A stretch of 64,000 nucleotides of DNA from Eutreptiella sp. 'Long Island Sound 2002' (taxonomy: Eukaryota > Euglenozoa > Euglenophyceae > Eutreptiales > Eutreptiaceae), in NCBI GenBank assembly GCA_964036045.1, contig OZ038378.1:22430441-22494440 (forward strand). The letters run 5' to 3'. Of this stretch, positions 8,214 through 63,355 are shown in pieces; within the stretch, counting starts at the first letter, position 1; the number at the start of each line of letters is the position of its first letter. Made by a program: the position numbers and the translations under genes. The notes beneath the pieces were generated by a model that saw only the letters and a program-made list of their open reading frames with translations, did no database searches and was not told the origin of the DNA.

Positions 8214-10310
8214 ATGGATCCGGCACTGCTAAGGGTGGTTGTCGCGAGTCGTGAGTTTCTGAACGTTGATGACCTCATGACGGATGTTGCCAATGGGGGC
8301 TCTGCAAGGTTATTGGCTGTCGGGGCCCTGGCAATGCGGACAAATCGACGATCACGGAAGGACTTTACACGGTTGCTGTTTGCCCATGGAACACGGAAGA
8401 AGCCCTGTTGGTACACTGTTTTCTCAAATCAATTGCTATGCTTGTGGCGACTTCTGAGAAAGATGGCAGCCCCTCATGCACAGTCCGAGGATGTACCAAT
8501 ACCTATTTCATTGAGCCGATTGTTGGCTCCCAGAGGACTTGTGCATGCAGCTATGCCCTCACTTGCTGCCAATGCGCGACAACAAGCAACTTGGCTTTGG
8601 CAAAACATGCAGAACCACCAGATGGCGCTCTGGTATGACAACTGGGTGAAAAAGAATTATGGGGTGGACCCGCTTCATCTTGACCACTCCATAAATTGCA
8701 CAGCTGTGGCCGTGTTACATTTGCCAGCCCTACCACCATTTCCGGGTCATGTCTCACTACTTGATGCCGTTCAGACAATTGGGGCACATGTTGATGCTCT
8801 ACAACTTCGTCATGCGGATCTGTTTCGGCGTGTTAATGCCCTTCCTGACATGATTCAGCGTACCTTTGTCAGAGTCCCCCTGGACATTGTGCGGCAAAAT
8901 GTGCTATCTGTCCGCTGGCAACCGATGATGCTGTCTGAGCTACGGTGTGGAACCAAACTGGATCACTTGAAACTGCTAAATACAATCCGGCATGTGCAGC
9001 AGGCAACTCGTCATGATTTACCTTTGTGTGTGGATATGAAGATTCACTATGAGCTCTTGAAATACCTCTATGGGCAGAGTTACACTTCATGGAATTTCCA
9101 ATTGCACTTGTCAAGCCTCCCACTCATCTACGGGGTTTGGCACCCGTACAAGCATATGATCACCATGCTTTACCGCAACTTTATGCCCATTATATGTGTG
9201 ATGGAGAGAGTACACACCGATTTCAAGGAAGGGGATGCAGTACCAACAAAGGTTAAGCTCCTTCATATGGAGAAGACAATACTGGCGCTTTGTCTGAATG
9301 CTGGCACTTACCTACCAAGAGTTCAGGCAAAACTTGATGCATATGCCGTTGCGGCGCAGAATGGACCATTGACGGACATGCAGTCTAAAAGCAAGGAGCT
9401 AATTTTGGGGTTGAAGGTGTTGTTGAAGGAGTATTGTCCTGTTGCATTTAGGATTGGTGTCCTTGTGAGAGACTGCAATAGGGCTGCTAGAGATCCCGGA
9501 AGTGGGAAGAATGCCTTGGCACTGCTGGAGTCTTGTTTGTTGGTTATGCTTTCTTTGGTGGGGAATCAATAGGAGAATGTGGAGTACATCAAGACATTGG
9601 TGGCTGCTCTGGTCACATGGCAGCGTTGGCACTCTCGGGTGCCCGGTTGTATTCACAGTGAGGAATATGGGGAGGCTATGTTGAGCAGGTTGTGTGCACA
9701 GTGCCGGATATGGACTACCATCACATCCCTGAGTGGCCCCTCCGAAATTTTTGTAACGTTGAGTCAGACCTTGACAGGGAGGAAGAACGTGCGGTTCTCA
9801 CTGACAGAGGAGTGTGTGAAGCGGTATGGGTCCAATTTGAGGAGGTTTATTCTGAGTGTGTCTGTTGCATCCTTGCCCATTGTACAATGGAAGCCGCCAC
9901 CCCTTTGGGTAGTAGAAGCAGTTGTGTTGCGTACTGTAGATGACCTTCAGTTTCCTAGTACATTTGCAGCCGTTCCACCACGTAGCGTTCCTTTTAGTGT
10001 GTTCCACAAATATATTAGGACCCTTCTTCGTAAGAATCCCCCAAGCGATGACCATCTTACGGTTCTACAGCAAACGGTGCCTCCATCAACGATTGCCGGG
10101 CAACGGAATGTGGGTATCCAGAGAGTGATGCAAATTACCCGCCCGCCCGAGCCCAAACCCAAGCCCAAACCCAAACCAGGGAAAACGGTTGCACAACGAG
10201 GTGCCCCTCACCCCAGCCCCCCCCCCAAGACACGGTGCACCCATCGCCAAATCTGCCCCAAGGAATCCAAAACCATCAGCCAAACCTGGCCCTCAGCAAC
10301 CGCAGAATAG
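8214..10310 (+). CDS. Large unknown gene A, one reading frame interrupted by a single TAG
   Basis: ATG at 8214 (MDPALLRVVVASREFLNVDD) opens 452 codons to a TAG at 9570-9572. The same frame then continues without a break for 246 codons to 10,310. I do not recognise the family. Visible features: a basic patch (MRTNRRSRKDFTRLLF) near residue 45; the segment LPLCVDMKIHYELLKYLYG near residue 275 followed about 20 residues later by LPLIYGVWHPYKHMITMLY; and after the TAG an Arg-rich Cys-containing stretch and a basic linker (PEPKPKPKPKPGK). An Asp-containing strand followed by a conserved-looking GVWHPYKH block could belong to a transposase-type catalytic fold, but this is a guess. No signal peptide or membrane span is visible. 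The length and clean frame indicate a real, recently active gene. TAG could be a mutation of CAG or TGG, or readthrough. Confidence 0.7.
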
Positions 10311-10372
10311 GGTACAGCATTCGAATGGGGGGGGGGGGGGGATGATGGCCCCCAGGTGGCCTTGTTTTCCAC

Positions 10373-10471
10373 AGTGACAGTGATAACAGTAGTGTCTCGG
10401 ATGATGACGACATAGTAGCTATTCTGGATGAAGAGGAGGTTTTTGGACAGGATACTTCACAATGGGACTGA
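10373..10471 (+). CDS. Acidic C-terminal tail, probably of gene A
   Basis: After a G12 run the frame reads SDSDNSSVSDDDDIVAILDE and closes at TGA 10,469-10,471. It is in a different phase from gene A, so either the G run has slipped or a short intron ending at CCACAG (10,374) intervenes. A Ser/Asp-rich tail with the same end pattern, DGDDASAILFDE, closes the decayed gene at 17.9-18.3 kb. That repetition is the main support for this being a real domain. Confidence 0.5.
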   Translation, partial: SDSDNSSVSDDDDIVAILDEEEVFGQDTSQWD

Positions 10472-10530
10472 CATACCTGTTGTCTTCACAATGTACCAGA
10501 TACTGTTTTTAGCACATTTTGGTTTGAGAC

Positions 10531-10542
10531 GCGAAATTTCGC
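10531..10542. repeat. GCGAAATTTCGC palindrome between genes A and B
   Basis: The context is TTTGAGACGCGAAATTTCGCTT. It lies about 60 bp after the stop of the gene A tail and about 300 bp before the start of gene B, so here it is intergenic or in a UTR. Confidence 0.85.
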
Positions 10543-10844
10543 TTGCTTTTGGGTTTTGTGTGTTTTGAGCCTGTGTCCCACAGGGTGCTGTTACACTGCT
10601 GCCACTTGTACCACTAATGTGCTATTCATTTTTGTGTGTGATCCCGACTCTCATGGTTTTACGTATTACATGTTGCTGAGGCTGTCATGATGTGTGATTT
10701 CAGCTGCTCTGTGCAGCATTCCTTGATGTCCCCTTGCAAAGGCTATAATTGAGGAATAAGTGGTCCGGAAACAACCAAATCACCACTGTCTGTCAATGTG
10801 ATCCATGCCCAGAGCACCCTGATTTCCTCCAAGCCCCCACTGTC

Positions 10845-11168
10845 ATGTCATCCGTACCCACAAAACCAAACACCAATGTGCCTGTGGCCCCAGAGCCATC
10901 CTCTTTATCACAACCCTCGCAGGGGTCCTCCGAGGGCCCCAGTCAACGGAATCCGGTCAGCCGGGGGAACAAGAAGGCCACTCCGAAAACGGACACCCTA
11001 GCAGATGCCGTCCAGAAGACAATGGTGTTATCCCACAAGGTCCTGCGGGTGGATGTTAACCGCGAGCATGGGCAAATCCGGACGGTCAGCGAGACCAGAC
11101 CAAAGCTGCGGCTGGAGGATTTGGCAAGGGTACCTCCCGTGGGGATCATCAAAGGATTACTGGTCTAG
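10845..11168 (+). CDS. N-terminal part of unknown gene B
   Basis: I chose ATG 10,845 (MSSVPTKPNTNVPVAPEPSS) because the frame has no earlier ATG in coding-like sequence. The first ~45 residues are Pro/Ser/Gln-rich. Then come a basic stretch (NPVSRGNKKATPKTD) and an ordinary folded-looking segment (VLSHKVLRVDVNREHGQIR, TRPKLRLEDLARVPP). The frame ends at a TAG at 11,168, but from about 11,141 another phase clearly takes over, so there is a frameshift or a very short intron near GGGTACCTCCC (11,128-11,138). The function is unknown. The proline-rich tail resembles the other genes of the cluster. Confidence 0.5.
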   Translation: MSSVPTKPNTNVPVAPEPSSLSQPSQGSSEGPSQRNPVSRGNKKATPKTDTLADAVQKTMVLSHKVLRVDVNREHGQIRTVSETRPKLRLEDLARVPPVGIIKGLLV

Positions 11169-11951
11169 CCTGGCAATTGTATGTTGCTGCACTTGCTTCT
11201 ACACGTCTGTCGTTTGCATACTGGCCTGGGGACGAATTTTCTTCTGTTATTGCCTCAGTGGGTAGCTTCTGGATCATTGGTGGCGAACATGTCTTTTGTG
11301 CGGCGAGGAGACTGGCCAATGAACGTGAGAAAAAGAATCTGGACCCTTTGAGATGGCAGCTGGAGTTTGAGTCTATGGTTCTGAAGTGGGATACTCCCGT
11401 GCGCCAGAGGAGACGTCTAGCCGGCCACCAGCAGACAGCGCAGCTGTCAGGCACAGGAGCATGCATGAGTGAGAGGGCTGTGCTGCTGATGGAGAACTTG
11501 GAGGAGCCTGAGAATGCTGATCTCGGTCTCACTAACGTGTGCCGCCAGATATTGGAGGAGGCTGGACTGACAGCTGATGAAGGAAGCCTGGTGTGTGACT
11601 GTCGCTCTCATGCGCATTGTTGTCCCAAAAAAGTTTGGTTGTATGCACTGTAGGATTCTGTGGCACGACGCTGGCTACCCTTGGCTAGAATGATTGATGC
11701 AACTGGCTATACAGCAATTGATGGAATTCGCAATTTCGAGAACAGGAGGATCCCCTTGGCACTTGCATCATTCAAACCATTGGAGGAGCTCATTGGACCA
11801 CACTTTGCACAGTGTGCCAAATACATGGAGACTCCACGAGCCACTGTTGCAGGAGTGGCTAAAGTGTTATGTGAATGCCAACGGGAAATGCGATGTGACT
11901 GGATTGTTATGCATCCTGACTGTCCAGAGGAGTTGGTTCACCCATCCCGCA
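11141..11951 (+). CDS. Middle part of gene B, interrupted by one TAG
   Basis: The frame reads GDHQRITGLAWQLYVAALAS at the start, and then a hydrophobic segment (SVIASVGSFWIIGGEHVFCA) that could be buried or membrane-associated. It continues past a TAG at 11,651-11,653 without loss of frame (before it WLYAL, after it DSVARRWLPLARMIDATGY). Cysteine/histidine pairs (VCDCRSHAHCCPKK, then CAKYM, CECQREMRCDW, HPDCPEE) might bind metal, though their spacing fits no family I know. The frame closes at TAA 11,984, which lies inside the proposed intron ending at 12,028, so this TAA need not be used. It was not recognised. Confidence 0.5.
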
Positions 11952-12028
11952 GTATGTTGTGCAGGCATCCTGAATTGCACTATTAAATCATCGAATTCTG
12001 TTGATAGTGGCGAAATTTCGCGTCTCAG
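11952..12028 (+). other. Probable intron of gene B containing the palindrome
   Basis: The acceptor is CGTCTCAG at 12,028, where a new open phase (WKHGLDTQFFSITGN) begins. The donor is less certain. GTATGTT at 11,952 looks like a consensus donor but leaves the phase wrong, while GT at 11,932 or 11,956 would join in phase. The GCGAAATTTCGC palindrome at 12,010-12,021 lies seven bases from the acceptor. Loss of coding character and the in-frame TAA at 11,984 support an intron here. Confidence 0.45.
12010..12021. repeat. GCGAAATTTCGC palindrome near a splice acceptor
   Basis: The context is TAGTGGCGAAATTTCGCGTCTCAG, which is the GAGACGC...CCAC form in reverse orientation. In this orientation the flank supplies the CTCAG acceptor itself. 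Confidence 0.85.
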
Positions 12029-12677
12029 GTGGAAACATGGTCTGGACACCCAGTTTTTCTCTATAACAGGAAATACATCCGAGATTGCTACCCTACAGCG
12101 TCATATCAAGGGGATTGGTGCATTGAAGTTCCGCTGTGCATGCTGGGTGTACACTGATGACATGCCTATGCCTCCCTGGGACTCTGTGTGCAAGGCCGAA
12201 TTCTGGACATCCTCAAAATATGTAGACTTCAGGAGCCACCTGGCCAGACCTCGGAATACCTTTGACATTGCCAGCTCCGAAGGGAATGTGGTTCACTTGA
12301 AGACAGTCTCTGGTTCTGGTGCAGATGCTCTTGGCGGTGAGTCCCCCTTTCAGCTTTGTCTTCTGAATCCTACTGCCATTTTGAATGCTACTGTCGTTGG
12401 GTGGCCGTTCATACTGGCTGTCATTGAGGTTCCAAAGGGCTGGTCCACGGGTCTACCACCTCTTGCTGTGCGACATGTTTCAATGGGGAAACCACTGGTG
12501 GTTGCTGGTGAGTTGGCGGACGTACGAATCATCATGAGCCAGCTGCAGACTGACCTAGCTGAGGAGGGAGTGCATCAAGTGAGTGTCATGGTGTACAACA
12601 CTGGCAGCCGCAGTCCGAATTTCACTATGATGCAATCAATGATGACAATTGTCACGTTGACTCAGATTCCAAGGAAG
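12029..12677 (+). CDS. Internal exon of gene B
   Basis: The frame runs without a stop from the CTCAG acceptor at 12,028 to the donor AAG|GTACATT at 12,678. It reads WKHGLDTQFFSITGNTSEIA at the start, then Cys/Trp-rich FRCACWVYTDDMPMPPWD, a small-residue loop (VSGSGADALGGES), hydrophobic strands (NATVVGWPFILAVIEVPKGW) and MVYNTGSRSPNFTMM. The mixture suggests an alpha/beta globular domain. No catalytic motif is recognised. The exon ends in phase 0 and is continued in phase by the next exon. Confidence 0.6.
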
Positions 12678-12782
12678 GTACATTGCCCCCTGTGAATTGA
12701 TACCCCAAATCAGCCAAATTCGAAAAATGAAGCGAAATTTCGCCACTCCCGCCATTTTGCCCAATTTGCACCATCTGTTTAG
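12678..12782 (+). other. GT-AG intron (105 bp) of gene B, joins in phase 0
   Basis: The donor is AGGAAG|GTACATT and the acceptor is CTGTTTAG|CTGCCG. Removing 105 bp joins the frames ending TLTQIPRK and beginning LPMYVTFREGPLPS with no change of phase, and removes a TGA at 12,693. The intron contains the 46-bp block 12,703-12,748 and its palindrome. This is the best-supported intron of the cluster. Confidence 0.75.
12703..12748 (+). repeat. 46-bp spacer block with palindrome, copy 2
   Basis: It matches 7910-7955 with one mismatch and lies wholly within the 105-bp intron. The palindrome GCGAAATTTCGC is at 12,732-12,743. Confidence 0.9.
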
Positions 12783-19457: not shown

Positions 19458-19906
19458 CGACGGCTCAGTTGACTGAGCACCCCGACTGAGCCGTCACTGA
19501 GCCGTCGCTGAGCCGGCCCACTGAGCGCTCACGGAACGCGCCAAATGGCTCAGTGAGCGCTCACTGAGAGCTAATTAGGGGCTCACTCAGGGCTCACTCA
19601 GGAGTTTCTCCCCCTTTCCGCCCTCTCTTCCCACCCTTGCCGGCCCACACTTCACCCTTTTCACACCAACATTGGTCCGCAGTTCTCACCACGTCTTTTC
19701 TCCAAGAACTTGAGCGTGCATGCACACATACATACTTACATACATGTACCCGTGGCGACAAACACACAAACATCCAAACACACACACTTCGTCAGGGACA
19801 CAAATATCCAAACACATACACACACATACACCATACACGCGTCCACACGCACATGCACATGCACAAATTGACAACCACTTTCATTCGTGTGTGCAATTAT
19901 CTTGCA
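19458..19906 (+). repeat. Left main inverted arm of the foldback element
   Basis: It is the inverse of 21,845-22,303. It starts with repeated GACTGAGCCGTCACTGAGCC motifs, passes through a unique-looking stretch near 19,600-19,720 (TTTCTCCCCCTTTCCGCCCT), and ends with ACATACAC-type steps. The two arms differ by a few substitutions and small indels. Confidence 0.85.
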
Positions 19907-20018
19907 ATTTGTAACACAGAGTGTGCAGTGTGCAGTGTGCAATACACAGTATGCAGTGTGCAGTGTGCAATACATAGTGTGCAGTGTGCAGCGTGCAATA
20001 CACAGTGTGCAGTGACAG

Positions 20019-20232
20019 CGTACAGTGACAGTGAACCATGAGTGAGCCCTCACTGAGCGCTCACTGAGCCATTTGGCGCGCTCACTGAGCGCTCACTGCG
20101 CCGTTTCGCGCGCTCAGTGAGCGCTCAGTGAGCGCGCCAAATGGCGCAGTGAGCGCTCACTGAGCGCGCCAAATGGCTCAGTGAGCGCTCAGTGAGGGCT
20201 CACTCATGGTTCACTGTCACTGTACGTTGTAC
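20019..20232. repeat. Central hairpin, arms of about 100 bp
   Basis: The left side reads CAGTGACAGTGAACCATGAG, then TGAGCGCTCACTGAG repeats and CATTTGGCGCGC. The right side is the inverse, ending CTCATGGTTCACTGTCACTG. The centre is near 20,125 in CGTTTCGCGCGC. Beyond the arms the imperfect symmetry continues, with CAGTGTGCAGTGTGCAATAC on the left and TGTACACTGTACACTG on the right. Confidence 0.8.
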
Positions 20233-20580
20233 GTGTACACTGTCACTGTACACTATCCATGGACACTGCCAATGGTGTCACTGTCTACTGTCAATGTACA
20301 TGGTACACTGTACTCTGGCACCGTACGTTGTCACTGCACACTGCACACTGCCACTGCACACTGTCACTATACACTATCACTGTACATTGTCACTGTACAC
20401 TGTACACTGTACACTGTACTCTGTACACTGTACTCCCCAAGGTCTCATAGAATGTATCCCCACACACAGTACGTCCGCCACAACGCCCAAGTCTCTATAC
20501 TAGCACTCTACACTGTCACTCTACACGCACTGTATGCTCTCACTATACACCGTCACTGTACACTGTCACTGTAAACTTGG
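20233..20580. repeat. CACTGTACAC-type tandem repeats
   Basis: Degenerate 6- and 12-bp steps (CACTGTACACTGTACACTGT and CACTGTCACTG variants) fill the right shoulder of the central hairpin. Their inverse lies at 19,915-20,018. Confidence 0.75.
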
Positions 20581-20788
20581 TGCGGTCTTTTTTGGGAGGG
20601 GGTGGATGGTGATTTGAGCCCCCCTCTTTGTAGTCCTTTACCCCGCACCACCCCCCCCCCCACCGCTACAGCCAGAACCCAAAGAACAGCTGCAGCCACA
20701 GTGAAAGCTGCAACTGCAGCCTTCGCCACAGCCAGGGCCACACACACTGACACAACCACAACCAAATCCACACACAACGCAGCTTGCA

Positions 20789-20872
20789 GACACACACCCA
20801 CACCCACACCCACACCCACACCCACACCCACACCCACACCCACACCCACACCCACACCCACACCCACAACCA
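20789..20872. repeat. CACCCA hexanucleotide array
   Basis: About 13 uninterrupted copies of CCCACA occur on the plus strand. They are followed by a CA-rich region and by a (CA)n tract at about 21,099-21,150. Long spurious Thr/Pro and Val/Gly frames result. Confidence 0.9.
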
Positions 20873-21844
20873 AAGCCGCAACCACAGCCACTAGCATAAC
20901 CACACCAAGAACGACAGCTACCACAACAACCATGGCAACAACCTCACGCAAGCCCAGAACCACAACCACAACCACAAACACAACCATACCTGCATCTGCA
21001 GCCACAAACACAATGTTATGCGCACACAATCAAAGCCTATGCCACACAACACCAAAACCAACAACAACATCCAAAACAACAGCTGCAAAAGCTCCAACAC
21101 ACACACACACACACACACACACACATTGGCACACACACACACACACACACCTGCGCGTACACACATTCACAAATCCACATACGCACACAAACCTAGACAA
21201 CCAGAGACCAAAGAATGCAGTCACACGCTCACAGTGACGCACAAGGACACCTTCACCCACGCATCGATCCAAGCAAGCCCCCCCCCCCCGACTCACACAC
21301 AAACATACATACAAGCACACTAAATGAGAGAAACCAAGAGGGAACAAACCATCCACACTTGTGCACATGCGCATGGGCACAAGCACACACCCACAAACAC
21401 ACACAATAGCACAACATACCTGCAAAGGTCATCGTCATTGCCGCCACCATCATACACTCGATGCCATGGCCAGCAAAAAGGGCAGGGCAAGGGGACGCGA
21501 CAGGCAAGATAAGAGAAGGGGTTGGCATGGGGTAAGCGGGGGGATCAGGCATGGCAAAAGGGGACGGGAGGGGATAAGGAGGGAGGGGAATGACTGTGTC
21601 ATGGTGTAGGTCAAGATGGTTGTGTGATGAACCTCACAAAAGCGAGCAATATCCTCTGTGCCCTATTTGTGCTTCATGGCGCGCGTGCCCGTGTGTGTGT
21701 GGGGTGGGTGGGTGCCATTGTGATGAGGCAACAAGGAACACCCTTGCAAATGGTTAGGTTCATATCCCCGAACCCCAACCCCGTAACCATCTCTCCCTAG
21801 CCGTTCACTTCACATGGTTCAATGTGGCCATGTGTTTATGTACA

Positions 21845-22303
21845 CGCAAGATAATTGCACACACGAATGAATGTGGTTGTCAATTTGTGCATGTGCATGT
21901 GCCTGTGGACGTGTGTATGGTGTATGTGTGTGTATGTGTTTGGATATTTGTGTCCCTGACGAAGTGTGTGTGTTTGGATGTTTGTGTGTTTGTCGCCACG
22001 GGTACATGTATGTAAGTATGTATGTGTGCATGCACGCTCAAGTTCTTGGAGAAAAGACGTGGTGAGAACTGCGGACCAATGTTGGTGTGAAAAGGGTGAA
22101 GTGTGGGCCAGCAAGGGTGGGAAGAGAGGGCGGAAAGGGGGAGAAACTCCTGAGTGAGCCCTGAGTGAGCCCCTAATTAGCTTTCAGTGAGCGCTCACTG
22201 AGCGCTCACTGAGCCGTTTGGCGCGCTCAGTGAGCGCTCAGTGAGCCGGCTCAGCGACGGCTCAGTGACGGCTCAGTCGGGCGCTCAGTCAACTGAGCCG
22301 TCG
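21845..22303 (-). repeat. Right main inverted arm of the foldback element
   Basis: This is the inverse partner of 19,458-19,906, ending CAGTCAACTGAGCCGTCG. Outside the arm both sides also carry a T7 and a G/C run in mirrored order (GGGGGGG..TTTTTTT on the left, AAAAAAA..CCCCCCCCC on the right). Confidence 0.85.
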
Positions 22304-55635: not shown

Positions 55636-55964
55636 TTGCCGTACTAGGTTGGGTGCTTCAAACACAAACACATGATTCAGCACATCTGGAATGTGCATGG
55701 AGAGTGGTCCACAGAAGACACCATGGTGCTCCTCATTATGGATTGCAGTAATGCCTTCCCCACGTTGTCTCACAACTTCGCCAGGGCAGTGCTGGACTTC
55801 ATTCCGCTCAAGCAAGGGTTCGTGGACCTAATTTTGTCCTCACTATTGTCCTCTTGTTTCTTTCTAGTGGGCAATTCTGTCAACAAATCACATGTTTTCC
55901 GGCCAGGGGCCGGAATTCGCCCAGGGGACCTGTTTTCCCCTCTCCTTTTTTCGTATGTGCTTCC
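55636..55964 (+). pseudogene. Reverse transcriptase, N-terminal half of LINE 2
   Basis: The frame reads CFKHKHMIQHIWNVHGEW, then TMVLLIMDCSNAFPTLSHNF (first catalytic Asp block), VDLILSSLLSSCFFLVGNSV and FRPGAGIRPGDLFSPLLFSY VL (GxxPGDxxSP block). It breaks at the inserted element directly after the target-site copy. The YxDD half resumes 6.9 kb downstream. Confidence 0.8.
55957..55964 (+). repeat. Left 8-bp target-site duplication
   Basis: GTGCTTCC, identical to 62,871-62,878, directly abuts the terminal inverted repeat. Confidence 0.85.
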
Positions 55965-55992
55965 CAGCTATGTGTATAGCGACCTAGTCGGC

Positions 55993-56020
55993 TATCAGAC
56001 ATCAGACATCAGACTTTTAT
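55993..56020 (+). repeat. Subterminal ATCAGAC repeats, left
   Basis: Three ATCAGAC heptamers are followed by TTTTAT. The same block, one T shorter, overlaps the right terminal repeat at 62,833-62,859. Both are in the same orientation, so they are direct and not inverted. Confidence 0.85.
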
Positions 56021-56640
56021 GGACCATTACCCCCCCCCCCCCACCCCAACACCCTTTCTACCCCCCCCCCCCCCGTGTCAGACTTCGCCCCCCCCCCCCC
56101 GTGTCCCCCCCAATATCAGACTTGTCCCATTGTCACCACACCCTTGAGCTGTAGAAGTGGGTTGTGGTCTCGACCCTAGCGTCTGAAACCCAACCAGTGC
56201 TTGCAACCCCTTCAATGATGGTACGTGCCCCCCCCCCCCCCCCACCCCACCCCACCCCACCCCACCCCATCTCTCTGACTCAAACCGATCGGGGGGCTCA
56301 TATGTGACTGAAGACAAGTGGGAACAGAATCCTGATGTCTGGCCCCAGCAACCTCACCTGAGCTAATCGGGTCAGTTTTGCTGGTGGGGTGGGTTGGTGG
56401 GGGTTCATCGGGTTGGGCCGGAACTGTGGAGAGGGGGGGTAGTGGGTTTCGAGCACGGCACAGCACAGCACGGCACAGCACAGCACATCACAGCACATCA
56501 CAGCACAACACAACATACAGCATAGCACAACATATTACAGCACAACACAGCCCCTACGGCCGCCCAAGAGAGCCTCCCTCCCTCCCTCCCTCCCACCCTC
56601 CCTCCCCTCCCTCCCTCCCTCCCACCCTGTCATTTCCCTG
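56021..56640. repeat. C-runs, CCCCA, CACAG and CCCT microsatellites
   Basis: Several C9-C16 runs occur at 56,029-56,102 and 56,228-56,243. They are followed by (CCCCA)n to 56,268, a CACAG/CACAT-rich tract at 56,455-56,550 and (CCCT)n at 56,571-56,630. No coding sequence is seen between the left end and the ketosynthase exon. Confidence 0.8.
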
Positions 56641-56701
56641 CTTGTATGGTTGAGGTTAGGGAGGGTATGCCTGTTTTTCTTTTTCAGGTTTTTTTTTCTA
56701 G

Positions 56702-56997
56702 TTGGTTGGCGTACGTGTTTGGGTTGGTGGGACCCTCTATGACGATTGACACTGCATGTTCATCCTCGTTGGTGGCAACGGATGCTGCATGCAAGGCCAT
56801 GTATGCGCATGACTGTGAGGTGGCCGTGGCGGTGGGAGTAAACCTGCTCTTCAATTTCGAGGTGTTCATCAGCTTTCGTGCAGCCGGGATGCTATCCAGG
56901 AAAGGCCGATGTGCGACATTCTCCGATGATGCGGATGGGTATTTGCGCGAAGAGGGGTGTGGTGCGGTGTTGCTAAAGCCACTATCGAGTGCTTTGG
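56702..56997 (+). pseudogene. Type I polyketide synthase ketosynthase (KS) fragment
   Basis: The acceptor TTTTTTTTCTAG (56,701) precedes an open frame WLAYVFGLVGPSMTIDTACS SSLVATDAACKAMYAHDCEV AVAVGVNLLFNFEVF, then AAGMLSRKGRCATFSDDADG YLREEGCGAVLLKPLSSAL. It matches the centre of KS domains: DTACSSSL holds the active-site Cys that forms the thioester for Claisen condensation, and GMLS..GRC.TF...ADGY.R.EGCG is the conserved region after it. The two catalytic His motifs (HGTGT and GHxE) lie downstream in complete KS domains and are absent, because the exon runs straight into the 52-bp satellite. It has no stop or frameshift in 98 codons, so capture is recent or the piece is still translated. 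Confidence 0.85.
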
Positions 56998-57000
56998 GGG

Positions 57001-59436
57001 TGTAGACCCCCCAAATATTTGACGGACATACATCCGTCAAATATTTTGGGGGTCTACACCCCCCAGATAACTGACGCATGGGCATGTGTCAAATATTTGA
57101 CGGACATACATCCGTCAAATATTTTGGGGGTGTAGACCCCCCAAATATTTGACGAGGCCCCATCCGTCAAATATTTTGGGGGTGTAGACGCCCCAGATGA
57201 CTGACGCATGGGCATGCGTCAAATGTTTGACGGACATACATCCGTCACATGTTTTGGGGGTGTAGACCCCCCAAATATTTGACGGACACACATCCGTCAA
57301 CTATTTTGGGGGTGTAGACCCCCCAAATATTTGACGGACATACATCCGTCAAATATTTCGGGGGTCTACACCCCCCAGATAACTGACGCATGGGTATGCG
57401 TCAAATATTTGACGGACCTGCATCCGTCAAATATTTTGGGGGTGTGGACCCCCGAAATATTTGACGGACACACATCCGTCAAATATTTGGGGGGTCTACA
57501 CCCCCCAGGTAACTGACGCATGGGCATGCGTCAAATATTTGACGGACATACATCCGTCAAATATTTTGGGGGTGTAGACCCCCCAAATAGTTGACGGAAC
57601 CCCATCCGTGAAATATTTTGGGGGTCTACAGCCCCCAAATATTTGACGGAACCCCATCCGTGAAATATTTTGGGGCTGTAGACCCCCCAAATATTTGACG
57701 GAACCCCATCCGTGAAATATTTTGGGGGTGTACAGCCCCCAAATATTTGACGGAACCCCATCCGTCAAATATTTTGGGGGTCTACAGCCCCCAAATATTT
57801 GACGGAACCCCATCCTTGAAATATTTTGGGGGTGTACAGCCCCCAAATATTTGACAGAACCCCATCCGTCAAATATTTTGGGGGTGTACAGCCCCCAAAT
57901 ATTTGACGGAACCCCATCCGTGAAATATTTTGGGGGTCTACAGCCCCAAAATATTTCACGGATGTGGTTCCGTGAAATATTTGGGGGCTGTAGACCCCCC
58001 AAATATTTGACGGAACCACATCCGTGAAATATTTTGGGGGTCTACACCCCCAAAATATTTCACGGATGTGGTTCCGTGAAATATTTGGGGGCTGTAGACC
58101 CCCCAAATATTTGACGGAACCCCATCGGTGAAATATTTTGGGGGTGTAGACCCCCAAAATATTTCACGGATTTGGTTCCGTGAAATATTTGGGGGCTGTA
58201 GACCCCCCAAATATTTGACGGAACCCCATCCGTGAAATATTTTGGGGGTGTACAGCCCCCAAATATTTCACGGAACCCCATCCGTGAAATATTTTGGGGG
58301 TGTAGACCCCCCAAATATTTGACGGAACCCCATCCGTGAAATATTTTGAGGGTGTAGACCCCCCAAATATTTGACGGATTCCCATCCGTCAAATATATTG
58401 GGGGTGTACAGCCCCCAAATATTTGACGGATGGGGTTCCGTGAGACATTTGGGGGCCGTAGACCCCCCAAATATTTGACGAAACCACATCCGTGAAATAT
58501 TTGGGGGCTGTAGACCCCCCAAATATTTGACGGAACCCCATCCGTGAAGTATTTTGGGGCTGTAGACCCCCCAAATATTTGACGGAACCCCATCCGTCAA
58601 ATATTTTGGGGGTGTACAGCCCCCAAATATTGGACAGAACCCCATCCGTGAAATATTTGGGGGCTGTAGACCCCCCAAATATTTGACGGAACCCCATCGT
58701 GAGAAGTTTTGGGGGGTGTACAGCCCCCAAATATTTGACGGAACTCCATCCGTGAAATATTTTGGGGGTGTAGACCCCCCAAATATTTGACGGAACCCCA
58801 TCCGTCAAATATTTTGGGGGTGTACAGCCCCCAAATATTTGACGGATGGGGTTCCGTGAAACATTTGGGGGCTGTAGACCCCCCAAATATTTGACGGATC
58901 CCCATCCGTGAAATATTTGGGGGCTGTAGACCCCCCAAATATTTGACGGAACCCCATCCGTGAAATATTTTGGGGGTGTAGACCCCCCAAATATTTGACG
59001 GAACCCCATCCGTCAAATATTTTGGGGGTGTAGACCCCCAAACATTTGACGGAACCCCATCCGTGAAATATTTTGGGGGTGTAGACCCCCAAAATATTTC
59101 ACGGATGTGGTTCCCTGAAATATTTGGGGGCTGTACACCCCCCAAATATTTGACGGAACCCCATCCGTGAAATATTCGGGGGCTGTAGACCCCCCAAATA
59201 TTTGACGGACACACATCCGTCAAAGACTTCGGGGGTGTAGACCCCCCAAATGTTTGACGGACATACATCCGTCAAATATTTTGGGGGTCTACACCCCCCA
59301 GGTAACTGACGCATGGACATGCGTCAAATATTTGACGGACATTCATCCGTCAAATGTTTTGGGGGTGTAGACCCCCCAAATATTTGACGGACACACGTCC
59401 GTCAAATATTTTGGGGGTGTAGACCCCCCAAATATT
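57001..59436. repeat. 52-bp satellite, about 47 units, two hairpins per unit
   Basis: Each unit has a palindrome TTTGGGGGTGTAGACCCCCC-AAA followed by a second, AAATATTTGACGGA-N6-TCCGTCAAATATTT. Variants read TCCGTGAAATATTT. A few units (about 57,060, 57,190, 57,375, 57,510 and 59,295) carry a third palindrome, GACGCATGGGCATGCGTC. Because 52 is one more than a multiple of 3 and stops are rare, all minus-strand frames give the same 52-residue periodic peptide (SNIWGVYTPKIFHGWGSVKY and onward). I do not regard this as a gene. Confidence 0.95.
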
Positions 59437-62400
59437 GTGGGGGCCTATGGGGGCCTGTGGGGACCTATGGGGACCTATGGGGGCCTATGGGGCTCTTTGG
59501 GGACCTATGGGGGTCTATGGGGGCCTATGGGGGCCTATGGGGGCCTATGGGGACCTATGGGGACCTATAGGGGCCTATGGGGGTCTATGGGGACCCATGG
59601 TGGCTTATGGGGCTCTATGGGGACCTATGGGGGCCTATGGGGACTTATGGGGACCTATGGGGGCCTATGGGGGCCTATGGGGACCTATGGGGACCTATAG
59701 GGGCCTATGGGGACCTATAGGGGCCTATAGGGGCCTATGGGGACCTTTGGGGGCCTATGGGGGACTATGGGGGCCTATGGGGGCCTATTGGCATTTTTGG
59801 GGACCTGTGGGGGCCTATGGGGACCTATGGGGACCTATGGGGGCCTATGGGGGCCTATGGGGGCCTATGGGGGCCTATGGGGACCTATGGGGGCCTATGG
59901 GGGTCTATGGGGACCTATGGGGACCTTTGGGGGCGTATGGGGTCCTTTAGGGGCCTATGGGGACCTATGGGGGCCTATGGGGACCCATGGGGGCCTATGG
60001 GGGTCTATGGGGACCTATGGGGGCCTATTGGCACCTATGGGGACCTATGGGGGCCAATGGGGGCCTATGGGGGCCTATTGGCACCTTTGGGGACCTATGG
60101 GGCTCTATGGGGGCCTATGGGGGCCTATGGGGACCTATGGGGACCTATGGGGGCCTATGGGGACCTTAGGGGGCCTACGGGGGCCTTTGGGGGCACGTGG
60201 GGACCTATGGGGACCTATGGGGGCCTATGGGGCCTACGGCGGTCTATGGGGACTTATGGGGGCCTATGGGGGTCTATGGGGACCTATGGGGGCCTATTGG
60301 CACCTTTGGGGACCTATGGGGACCTATGGGGGCCAATGGGGGCCTATGGGGGCCTATTGGCAGCTTTGGGGACCTATGGGGCTCTATGGGGGCCTATGGG
60401 GGTCTATGGGGACCTTTGGGGGCCTATGGGGGTCTATGGGGACCTTTGGGGGCCTATGGGCGCCTATGAGGGCCTATGGGGGCCTACGGGGGCCTATTGG
60501 CACCTTTGGGGACCTATGGGCATCTTTGGGCACCTTTGGGGGTCTATGGGGACCTTTGGGGACCTATGGGGACCTTTGGGCACCTTTGGGGACCTATGGG
60601 GTCTATGGGGACCTACGGGGACCTATGGGGGTCTATGGGGACCTATGGGGACCTATGGGGACCTTTGGGCACCTTTGGGGACCTTTGGGGACCTATGGGG
60701 GTCTATGGGGACCTACGGGGACCTATGGGGGTCTATGGGGACCTTTGGGGACCTATGGGGACCTTTGGGCACCTTTGGGGACCTTTGGGGACCTATGGGG
60801 GTCTGTGGGGACCTACGGGGACCTATGGGCACCTATGGGGACCTATGGGGACCTATGGGGGCCTATGGGGGTCTACGGGGACCTTTGGGGACCTATGGGG
60901 ACCTTTGGGCACCTTTGGGGACCTATGGGCACCTATGGGGATGGGGATCTATGGGCACCTATGGGGATGGGGGCCGATGGGCGACTCATCGGCATCTAGG
61001 GGGGCCTATGGGGGCCTATGGGGGCCTATGGGGGCCTATGGGGGCCTATGGGGGCCTATGGGGGCCTATGGGGACCTATGGGGGCCTATGGGGGCCTATG
61101 GGCACCTTTGGGGGTCTATGGGGGCCTATTGGAGCCTATGGGGGCCTATGGGGACCTATGGGGACCTATGGGGGCTTGGGGGGACCTTTGGGGGGCTATG
61201 GGGGCCATTGGGACCTATGGGGACCTATGGGGAGCTATGGGGGCCTATGGGGACCTATGGGGGCCTATGGGGGCCTATGGGGGCCTATGGGGGCCTATGG
61301 GCACCTTTGGGGACCTTTGGGGGCGTATGGGGTCCTTTAGGGACCTTTGGGGACCTACGGGGGTCTATGGGGACCTATGGGGGTCTATGGGGACCTATGG
61401 GGGCATATGGGGGCCCATGGGGGTCTACGGGGACCTTTGGGGACCTATGGGGACCTTTGGGCACCTTTGGGGACCTATGGGCACCTTTGGGGACCTATGG
61501 GCACCTATGGGGATGGGGGCCGATGGGGACTCATCGGCATCTAAGGGGGACCTATGGGGGCCTATGGGGGCCTGTGGCGGCCTATGGGGGCCTATGGGGA
61601 CCTTTGGGGGTCTATGGGGAGCTATTGAGGCCTATGGGGGCCTATGGGCACCTTTGGGGGCCTATGGGGGCCTATTGGGGCCTATGGGGGCCTATGGGGG
61701 TCTATGGGGACCGATGGGGGCCTATTGGCACCATTGGGGACCTATGGGGGCCTATGGGGACCTTTGGGGGCCTATGGGCGCGTATGGGGGCCTATGAGGG
61801 CCTATGGGGGCCTACGGGGGCCTATTGGCACCTTTGGGGACCTATGGGCATCTTCGGGCACCTTTGGGGGTCTATGGGGACCTTTGGGGACCTATGGGGA
61901 CCTTTGGGCACCTTTGGGGACCTATGGGGGTCTATGGGGACCTACGGGGACCTATGGGGGTCTATGGGGACCTATGGGGGCCTATGGGGGTCTACGGGGA
62001 CCTTTGGGGACCTATGGGGACCTTTGGGCACCTTTGGGGACCTATGGGCACCTATGGGGATGGGGACCTATGGGCACGTATGGGGATGGGGGCCGATGGG
62101 TGACTCATCGGCATCTAGGGGGACCTATGGGGGCCTATGGGGGCCTATGGGGGCCTATGGGGGCCTATGGGGGCCTATGGGGACCTTTGGGGGTCTATGG
62201 GGACCCATTGGGGCCTATGGGGGCCTATGGGCACCTTTGGGGGTCTGTGGGGGCCTATTGGGGCCTATGGGGGCCTATGGGAGCTTGTGGAGGCCTATGG
62301 GGGCCTGTGGGGACCTACGGGAACCTATGGGCACCTTTGGGGACCTACGGGGACCTATGGGGGCCGATGGGGACTCATTGGCATCTAGGGGGACCTTTGG

Positions 62401-62545
62401 GGACCTATGGGCACCTCTGGGGACCCATGGGCACCTTTGGGGGCCTATGGGGGCCTATGGGGGCCTATGGGGACCTATTGGCACCTTTGGGGACCTATGG
62501 GCACCTTTGGGGGCCCATGGGGGCCTATGGGGGCCTATGGGCACC
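59437..62545. repeat. 11-bp G-rich satellite, about 280 units
   Basis: The units are GGGGACCTATG and GGGGGCCTATG, with changes to CTTTG, CTACG or GCACC. The plus strand carries a GGGG or GGGGG tract every 11 bp. Since 33 bp is three units and eleven codons, all three plus frames read the same 11-residue period (GPMGAYGGLWG type), and one frame stays open for 746 codons (60,476-62,716). Higher-order structure: the punctuation GACTCATCGGCATCTA occurs at 60,983, 61,528, 62,102 and (one change) 62,372, so larger blocks of about 545-575 bp and one of 270 bp have been duplicated. Confidence 0.95.
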
Positions 62546-62832
62546 CTTTTGTTTGCCACTTTCCTTGCTCCCACATTTCCCCCATTTTCCCATTTTGGTG
62601 TTCAAAGTCTTTTTTACTTTTGTACTGCCATGTTTCTGATTGTCCAAGGTGGTTCCCCAATGATTTTTCAATTGTGTCCTCCCTTTTTGTTTTTTTCATT
62701 TGGGGGGGGGGGTTGATTTAGATTTAGGCATAGTTTCTCCCAATTTCCTTTGGGCATTAGACCCCTAGACCCACCTCCAGTAGATAAGAACATCAGACAT
62801 CTTCTTGGACAGACCGCACACACAACATCCCT
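62546..62832. other. Right non-repeat part of the hAT-like element
   Basis: It is T-rich with a G10 run (62,702-62,711) and a single ATCAGAC at 62,792. No coding sequence is supported. It leads into the right subterminal repeat. Confidence 0.5.
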
Positions 62833-62870
62833 TATCAGACATCAGACATCAGACTTTATACACATAGCTG

Positions 62871-62878
62871 GTGCTTCC
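62871..62878 (+). repeat. Right 8-bp target-site duplication
   Basis: GTGCTTCC is directly outside the right terminal inverted repeat and identical to 55,957-55,964. Confidence 0.85.
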
Positions 62879-63355
62879 TTTGTAATTTTCCCGTTGAATC
62901 ACACCCCGGGGGGGGTGGGTGGCATTTATCTGTATCTGGACGACCTATTGATCACCATCCCGTAAGGGTGCATAGACAGGGCTGTTACATTTGTAATGAA
63001 ATACCTTAGCCGTTTTTCGGCCATTTCAGGCTTGCACATCAACCTAGGCAAGTCGGCATTTGTACTAAAAGGACACATAGGTCCCGACGTGCTGCAACAG
63101 TTCAAAAAGGTTGGACTGCAGCAACAACAATATGTCAAACATGTGGGTGTCAAGGTAGGACACCTTATGGTCAAGGAACCCTATTTAGGCCCCCTTCCAG
63201 GAGGCATTCTGTAGAGCATGCATCTTCTCACACTTAGGTCTCAGTGTAGCAGAAAAACGTATACTGCTTAAGGTGTGGGTCTTGCGTACACTACCGCTGA
63301 CTGCAGGTACATATGTGGCAGACAGGTCAATCATATACACAGTGCACCAGGTATA
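62871..63355 (+). pseudogene. Reverse transcriptase, C-terminal half of LINE 2
   Basis: The frame resumes ASFVIFPLNHT, crosses a G-rich stretch and gives GGIYLYLDDLLITIP with the YxDD-type site (YLDD). After a TAA it continues in phase with VTFVMKYLSRFSAISGLHIN LGKSAFVLKG (the SGL.IN..KS block) and YVKHVGVKVGHL. Another phase at about 63,199-63,355 reads AFCRACIFSHLGLSVAEKRI LLKVWVLRTLPLTAG, the usual post-RT thumb segment. Joining the halves across the insertion leaves a 1-base phase difference, so the LINE also decayed by indels. Confidence 0.75.

Follow-up and report, generated by a model that had tools for sequence, protein, structure and literature searches.

The window analysed here is a 64,000-nucleotide stretch of the genome of Eutreptiella sp. 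'Long Island Sound 2002' (contig OZ038378.1, positions 22,430,441 to 22,494,440). Its positions 55965-62870 are occupied by a DNA transposon of 6,906 bp, with perfect 14-bp terminal inverted repeats (TIRs) and a perfect 8-bp target duplication. The element lies within a long interspersed nuclear element (LINE) and carries a fragment of a ketosynthase (KS) exon and two minisatellites (Table 1). When up to 3 mismatches were allowed, the TIR gave 8 matches in the window, and only those at 55965-55978 and 62857-62870 were exact. Four exact matches to ATCAGACATCAGAC were found in the window, two per end, as against 0.01 expected by shuffling. The ATCAGAC blocks near the ends have the same orientation at both ends and are not inverted. 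An earlier note on this DNA had described the perfect TIRs and duplication and the shared subterminal ATCAGAC blocks, and the exact positions and the ATCAGACATCAGAC matches agree with it.

In the real window, 117 pairs of inverted 12-bp arms were accompanied by an exact 8-bp duplication, as against 0 in each of 20 block shuffles. Among the 20 pairs listed, one was the element, 14 fell in the minisatellite at 57-59 kb and five were further pairs formed by arms in a repeat-rich stretch at 19.6-22.2 kb (19579-22172). Since minisatellites and repeats alone can yield inverted pairs with duplications, copies elsewhere in the genome are the stronger proof of an element. A chance origin of the ends was ruled out by the shuffling of ATCAGACATCAGAC, by the arm-pair shuffles and by the perfect 8-bp duplications of the complete copies described below.

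The reverse-transcriptase-like halves that flank the element are in different frames once the element is removed, so the LINE copy in the window was or became decayed. The left flank gave 19 matches in the genome including itself, the best of the others being 78% identical. Two of the 18 other matches were read (L044 and L045), and the alignments to them, at 73% and 65% identity, cross the breakpoint with no inserted sequence. The alignment of empty sites proposed in the earlier note thus bears out its claim that the element split a LINE. RPGD and YLDD lie close together in L045 as well, so that their short spacing is apparently characteristic of the LINE itself.

Table 1. Features of the element and of the LINE that it interrupts, in window positions.
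Feature	Positions	Strand	Basis
5' part of split, decayed LINE reverse-transcriptase frame; RPGDLFSP motif	55648..55956	+	translation, alignment
Target-site duplication, left copy, GTGCTTCC	55957..55964	.	exact repeat
Left TIR, CAGCTATGTGTATA	55965..55978	+	exact and mismatch search
Left terminus, 63 bp, three ATCAGAC units; common to window and 20 fetched copies	55965..56027	+	sequence comparison
Left arm, common to interior types a, b and c; ends in splice-acceptor-like CTTTTTCAG (to 56687) and TTTTTCTAG (to 56701)	56028..56701	+	sequence comparison
Captured KS exon fragment; PF00109; active-site Cys in TACSSS; exact exon ends inferred	56702..56996	+	profile match, alignment
26/52-bp palindromic minisatellite	56993..59436	.	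repeat analysis
10-bp minisatellite, consensus TGGGGACCTA, ~313 copies	59438..62545	.	repeat analysis
Right arm; last ~118 bp common to type d copies with right end seen (L011, L016)	62546..62870	+	sequence comparison
Right TIR, TATACACATAGCTG	62857..62870	+	exact and mismatch search
Target-site duplication, right copy, GTGCTTCC	62871..62878	.	exact repeat
3' part of same LINE; YLDD motif; aligned to two uninterrupted relatives	62879..63250	+	translation, alignment

To place the element in a family, we searched the host's own 2.28-Gb assembly. The 24-nt euglenid spliced leader had 3,283 exact matches there (1,601 and 1,682) and none in a reversed control; the host is a euglenid. The ends of the element are repeated in this genome: at least 40 candidates per end, the window included, were scored and matched (of 823 left and 1,118 right first-look candidates). 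Twenty copies (L009-L028, ranks 2 to 21 of the left-end search) were fetched by the left end. A right end lay within 10 kb in seven of them, and when three more (L011, L018 and L021) were extended to 20 kb it was reached in L011, at 15,818 bp. All nine complete copies, the window included, have a perfect 8-bp duplication, with nine different target sequences and lengths of 4.2 to 15.8 kb; one base of the right repeat is mismatched in L027. The earlier note had named in advance two outcomes under which the transposon reading would fall, one concerning the LINE breakpoint and the other the ends and duplications at other copies. We found neither, and the search that it proposed, for further copies with the same ends and duplications, supports the transposon reading.

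The interior sequence sorts the 20 copies into four types. Type a, the KS type, is represented by L013 and resembles the window. Type b (L009, L012, L024, L025, L027 and L028, with L019) has, between TTTTCCAG and a GTATGT donor, a short stretch that resembles an exon; the minisatellite is CATAGCCCCC-rich in those copies where it was read and differs in L019. Type c (L010 and L026) begins with GTTTGAACCATGACGATTG after the acceptor. In types a to c the left arm is common up to the acceptor and the sequences diverge directly after it. The other ten copies (L011, L014-L018 and L020-L023) form type d and have another interior; all ten have the 63-bp left terminus, and the ~118 bp on the right that are common with the window were seen in two (L011 and L016). 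The left arm of the window element is rich in simple repeats. In L013, a repeated coding-like stretch (SLNLSGNSVGESGAQALAALKDAASLHTL), by eye leucine-rich repeats, lies inside the 52-bp minisatellite at element positions ~1480-1800.

The open reading frame (ORF) at 56646-57005 matched PF00109 at 2e-35 over profile positions 150-252 of 252, that is, the last 103, and TACSSS is intact. The earlier note had claimed a captured KS exon with its active-site Cys and a splice acceptor upstream; the profile match and the acceptor-like sequences at the end of the left arm uphold both. With the KS DNA as query, 40 of 571 candidates in the genome were scored and 42 matches were listed, the window itself included. 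The fragment lies at at least 39 other places, 37 of them near full length at 90-99% identity and two split in two; both split places are on C14, with the pieces separated by ~210-220 bp. Twelve of the 39 places were examined (L030-L040 and L013), and in all twelve the left end of the element lies 767-1006 bp upstream. L038-L040 have common flanks and look like copies of one insertion. The left arm of L036 has an insertion of ~220 bp beside CCCCACCCCACC repeats. The boundary between KS and minisatellite is identical in all 13 aligned sequences, with KS at the same place, which points to one capture and later amplification.

It is possible to read this arrangement in two other ways. The KS exon could derive from a polyketide synthase (PKS)-like gene native to an ancestor of the element, of which one exon is left. 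Its position directly behind the splice acceptor of the arm in 13 of 13 aligned copies would fit such an origin, which we nevertheless hold to be improbable, as types b and c have the same arm followed by other sequence and no KS match was found in type d copies. Alternatively, the fragment could be a working exon cassette, maintained by selection, from which host transcripts obtain ketosynthase sequence. The intact frame and active-site Cys of the window copy and the acceptor-like sequence upstream speak for a cassette. The pattern of substitutions makes it hardly credible. Of 30 distinct changes in the 13 aligned sequences, 19 are nonsynonymous and 11 synonymous; with transitions weighted 4:1 and no selection, 70% would be expected to be nonsynonymous (p=0.43, the 30 changes giving the test modest power). 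L032 has a frameshift, in L034 the Ser beside the active-site Cys is Pro, and the fragment ends in the minisatellite. The shuffling of PKS modules by a selected exon was accordingly rejected, as no selection was seen. The KS piece appears to be a hitch-hiking passenger without detectable selection and not evidence of PKS shuffling. The 'route for shuffling polyketide modules' of the earlier note is therefore not supported, as the fragment comprises only the last part of PF00109, stops at the minisatellite and shows no selection among its copies.

The window element is a non-autonomous TIR element with a target duplication and a piece of a coding gene, the features by which Pack-TYPE elements are defined. 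In the accessible text on the Pack-TYPE elements of plants (PMC8903248), these are likewise non-autonomous DNA transposons that carry a piece of coding DNA and have multiplied in the genome. The present family differs in its euglenid host and in an apparently single capture behind a splice acceptor.

A possible source of transposase was found in type d. The complete type d copy of 15,818 bp (L011+L043) has an ORF with superfamily 1 (SF1) helicase domains (AAA_11, 1.8e-14; AAA_12, 2.7e-11) and a transposase-like ORF of 695 amino acids (P0003). A database search with P0003 gave 55 relatives, the best of which is a protein of 1,093 amino acids, 95% identical over 98% of the query and standing for 215 sequences; a second lineage of relatives lies at ~65-68% identity. 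Full-length relatives of the transposase are present in public data. In another type d copy (L021+L042), one reading frame comprises a match to a UCH-like peptidase (PF00443, 5.6e-7) and continues into the transposase. The transposase-like protein P0004 contains the motifs LLDG (Asp 338), AVDG (Asp 410), HRIRWS (516-521) and AEAAVERAISL (Glu 784), with spacings of 72 for D-D and 374 for D-E. Among 18 aligned rows, Asp 338 is conserved in 17, Asp 410 in 18 and IRWS in 15.

Transposases of the hAT superfamily have an RNase H fold interrupted by an insertion domain, with a D-D-E triad whose spacings in Hermes and Ac are near 66-68 (D-D) and 324-352 (D-E). The elements have short TIRs that start with CAG and end with CTG, as does the window element, and an 8-bp target duplication with the consensus nTnnnnAn. 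Among 29 distinct left flanks of the present family, most of which are biased because they were found with a query holding the window's own duplication, T was the commonest base at position 2 (13 flanks) and A stood at position 7 in seven. The element was called hAT-like because P0004 has the D, D, E and RW motifs and a spacing near that of Hermes and Ac. We consider it quite probable that the window element belongs to a hAT-type family of DNA transposons in the nucleus of a euglenid and is itself non-autonomous. Its membership of hAT is likely, as judged from the duplication, the ends and the motifs. It resembles non-autonomous, Ds-like hAT elements in the 8-bp duplication, the short TIRs beginning with CAG, the conserved subterminal repeats, the interior unrelated to that of the autonomous partner and the D-D-E spacing. 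Unlike in hAT elements, there is no Pfam match, the subterminal repeats have the same orientation at both ends, the minisatellites are very long, and the partner is 15.8 kb long with SF1 helicase and UCH-like regions.

Several results weigh against this assignment. No hAT family, hATC or other, matched the transposase in Pfam-A at E up to 5. A PDB profile search with the transposase gave only two chance-level matches (E 1.8 and 6.3), and an AlphaFold model from 18 aligned transposases had a mean pLDDT of 34.5, too poor for fold comparison. The Glu motif is present in only six of the 18 rows, 11 being gapped and one different. The transposase ORF is frameshifted in the complete 15.8-kb copy, and GTGCTTCC misfits the hAT duplication consensus at the seventh base. 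The window copy was probably moved in trans by the partner, since the partner shares with it only ~63 bp on the left and ~118 bp on the right; this we infer from the common termini alone. In addition, none of the 86 proteins found in an alignment-based search with the transposase was labelled hAT.

The transposase could instead belong to another cut-and-paste superfamily with 8-bp duplications, such as Zisupton/KDZ, P or Novosib. The missing hAT match in Pfam would agree with that, as would the SF1 helicase and UCH-like peptidase regions of the partner, which are unusual for hAT. However, no KDZ or P model matched the transposase in Pfam-A at E up to 5 either, and the order and spacing of D, D and E, the RW motif and the CAG...CTG ends fit hAT, so that we regard another superfamily as unlikely. 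Of the 'hAT-like' reading in the earlier note, the duplication, the CAG...CTG ends and a partner protein with D, D, E and RW motifs stood, and a Pfam hAT match and a usable structure were not obtained. Its proposed search for a full-length relative with a hAT transposase gave a partner with hAT-like motifs, without an hATC or other hAT profile match; the non-autonomous status of the window element was confirmed.

For the hAT-type element, we propose that the partner of the same family (15.8 kb, with the protein bearing hAT-like motifs) supplies the transposase, which would recognise the termini of ~63 bp on the left and ~118 bp on the right, cut at CAG and CTG, and insert the element with an 8-bp stagger. 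One ancestor would have gained the KS exon directly behind the splice-acceptor-like sequence, and the whole unit would then have multiplied.

The ends of the family may also bear on the nonconventional introns of euglenids. According to the accessible text of the studies cited here, the ends of these introns are paired, and the commonest combination is CAG at positions +4 to +6 with CTG at -8 to -6 (33 of 55; PMC4770533). For one class in Euglena gracilis, where 28,337 introns of all kinds are reported, the consensus reads CCAGG from +3 to +7 and CCTG from -9 to -6 (PMC11170887). In Euglena agilis, a gapC intron of recent origin is bordered by direct repeats of 8 nt (PMC4770533). A purine stands at the 5' end of the intron in 51 of 55 cases and at the start of the downstream exon in 55 of 55 (PMC4770533). 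The origin of these introns is described as open; MITE-like transposons have been proposed (PMC4770533, PMC6221363, PMC12621601), as has double-strand-break repair (PMC4770533).

The 3 nt before CAG and the 5 nt after CTG add up to 8, the length of one duplication of the window family. This sum is independent of where the borders are placed, because a shift within a direct repeat changes both numbers in opposite directions. The window element with its 8-bp duplication can be placed in this register, and its end pieces, once joined, form a stem. Removing CAG...CTG and 8 nt from it leaves one copy of the duplication, that is, the sequence before insertion. It is therefore conceivable, and we suggest it tentatively, that euglenid nonconventional introns are insertions of hAT-type transposons like the window family. 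The excised intron RNA would then be the CAG...CTG element with one copy of the 8-bp duplication, and splicing would restore the sequence before insertion. Under this idea, the purine at the starts of the intron and of the downstream exon, and the pyrimidine at the ends of the upstream exon and of the intron, would be the same duplicated bases. The likeness thus comprises CAG/CTG paired ends, direct repeats at the borders and the sum of 3 and 5 nt (PMC4770533, PMC11170887, PMC6221363, in the portions available). We found no mention of hAT or 8-bp duplications for nonconventional introns in the accessible text of the mainly open literature searched, which did not include a 2014 study cited there.

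A number of observations count against the intron idea. CAG/CTG occurs in only 33 of the 55 introns, the gapC repeat is longer than the direct repeats of the other introns analysed, and the authors favour break repair for that intron (PMC4770533, accessible text). Most of the introns have G/C at +7/-9 (31 of 55; CAGG...CCTG), unlike the C/G of the window family (CAGC...GCTG). The window copy has T at both the intron start and the downstream exon start, without the reported purine; it sits in a LINE, unlike the introns, and splicing of its family is hypothetical. A 295-kb scan for CAG...CTG elements of up to 5 kb between 8-bp repeats gave 21 pairs and no excess: eight of 16 control trinucleotides gave more than 21 pairs, and six of 16 gave more well-paired pairs than CAG. 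Two of the 21 pairs had well-paired ends, one of them being the known L016 element. Repeat lengths of 7 and 9 gave 19 and 20 pairs, with no peak at 8.

We also surveyed introns in tubulin and GAPDH genes, with borders placed by eye from protein frames, without cDNA, and one exon start (C3, L061) left out. All seven introns with both ends seen were GT-AG; four are in tubulin genes (one each on C20 and C9, two on C26) and three in GAPDH genes (two on C3, one on C19). Two tubulin exons on C19 between which another exon is missing likewise showed GT and AG, and two further donors, in C17 tubulin and C3 GAPDH exon 1, were GT. As no nonconventional intron was among those reached, these conventional introns neither support nor refute the idea. 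At C26:8016755-8033589, a tubulin-like gene has an apparent GT-AG intron of ~16.8 kb.

Other gene-like fragments are dispersed in this genome. A fragment resembling GAPDH (residues ~143-247 of the query, 33-41% identity, in most cases interrupted by at least one in-frame stop) accounts for 86 of 121 matches, e.g. C7:15619092-15619403, and a second (~164-320) lies at 19 places; these pieces are further amplified gene-like fragments. No GAPDH-like fragment was found by tblastn in the fetched loci longer than 1 kb. Short copies of a C-terminal tubulin fragment (residues ~360-420 of the query) are likewise scattered over the genome (20 of 69 matches, e.g. C17:28444592-28444696). Beta-tubulin genes on the small contigs C849, C951 and C1549, one of which has tandem copies, are intronless in the matched part and 79-91% identical to the green-algal query; these contigs could be contaminants. 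Within the window, positions 8214-12692 hold long ORFs without a convincing Pfam match, and by eye the one at 9573-10307 looks similar to an ORF of 610 aa in L022, likely another mobile element.

The element is ordinary in outline, a cut-and-paste transposon that carries a gene fragment, verified in an under-studied lineage and accompanied by a large helicase-bearing partner. A euglenid genome thereby gains a countable and probably transposase-linked cut-and-paste family, and the capture and amplification of a gene fragment are shown in a lineage far from plants. The ends, CAG...CTG with an 8-bp duplication, fit the published register of euglenid nonconventional introns, and the suspected transposon origin of those introns becomes testable from sequence data alone. 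If that origin is true, the source of the introns would have a living relative in the window family, for which a transposase is at hand.

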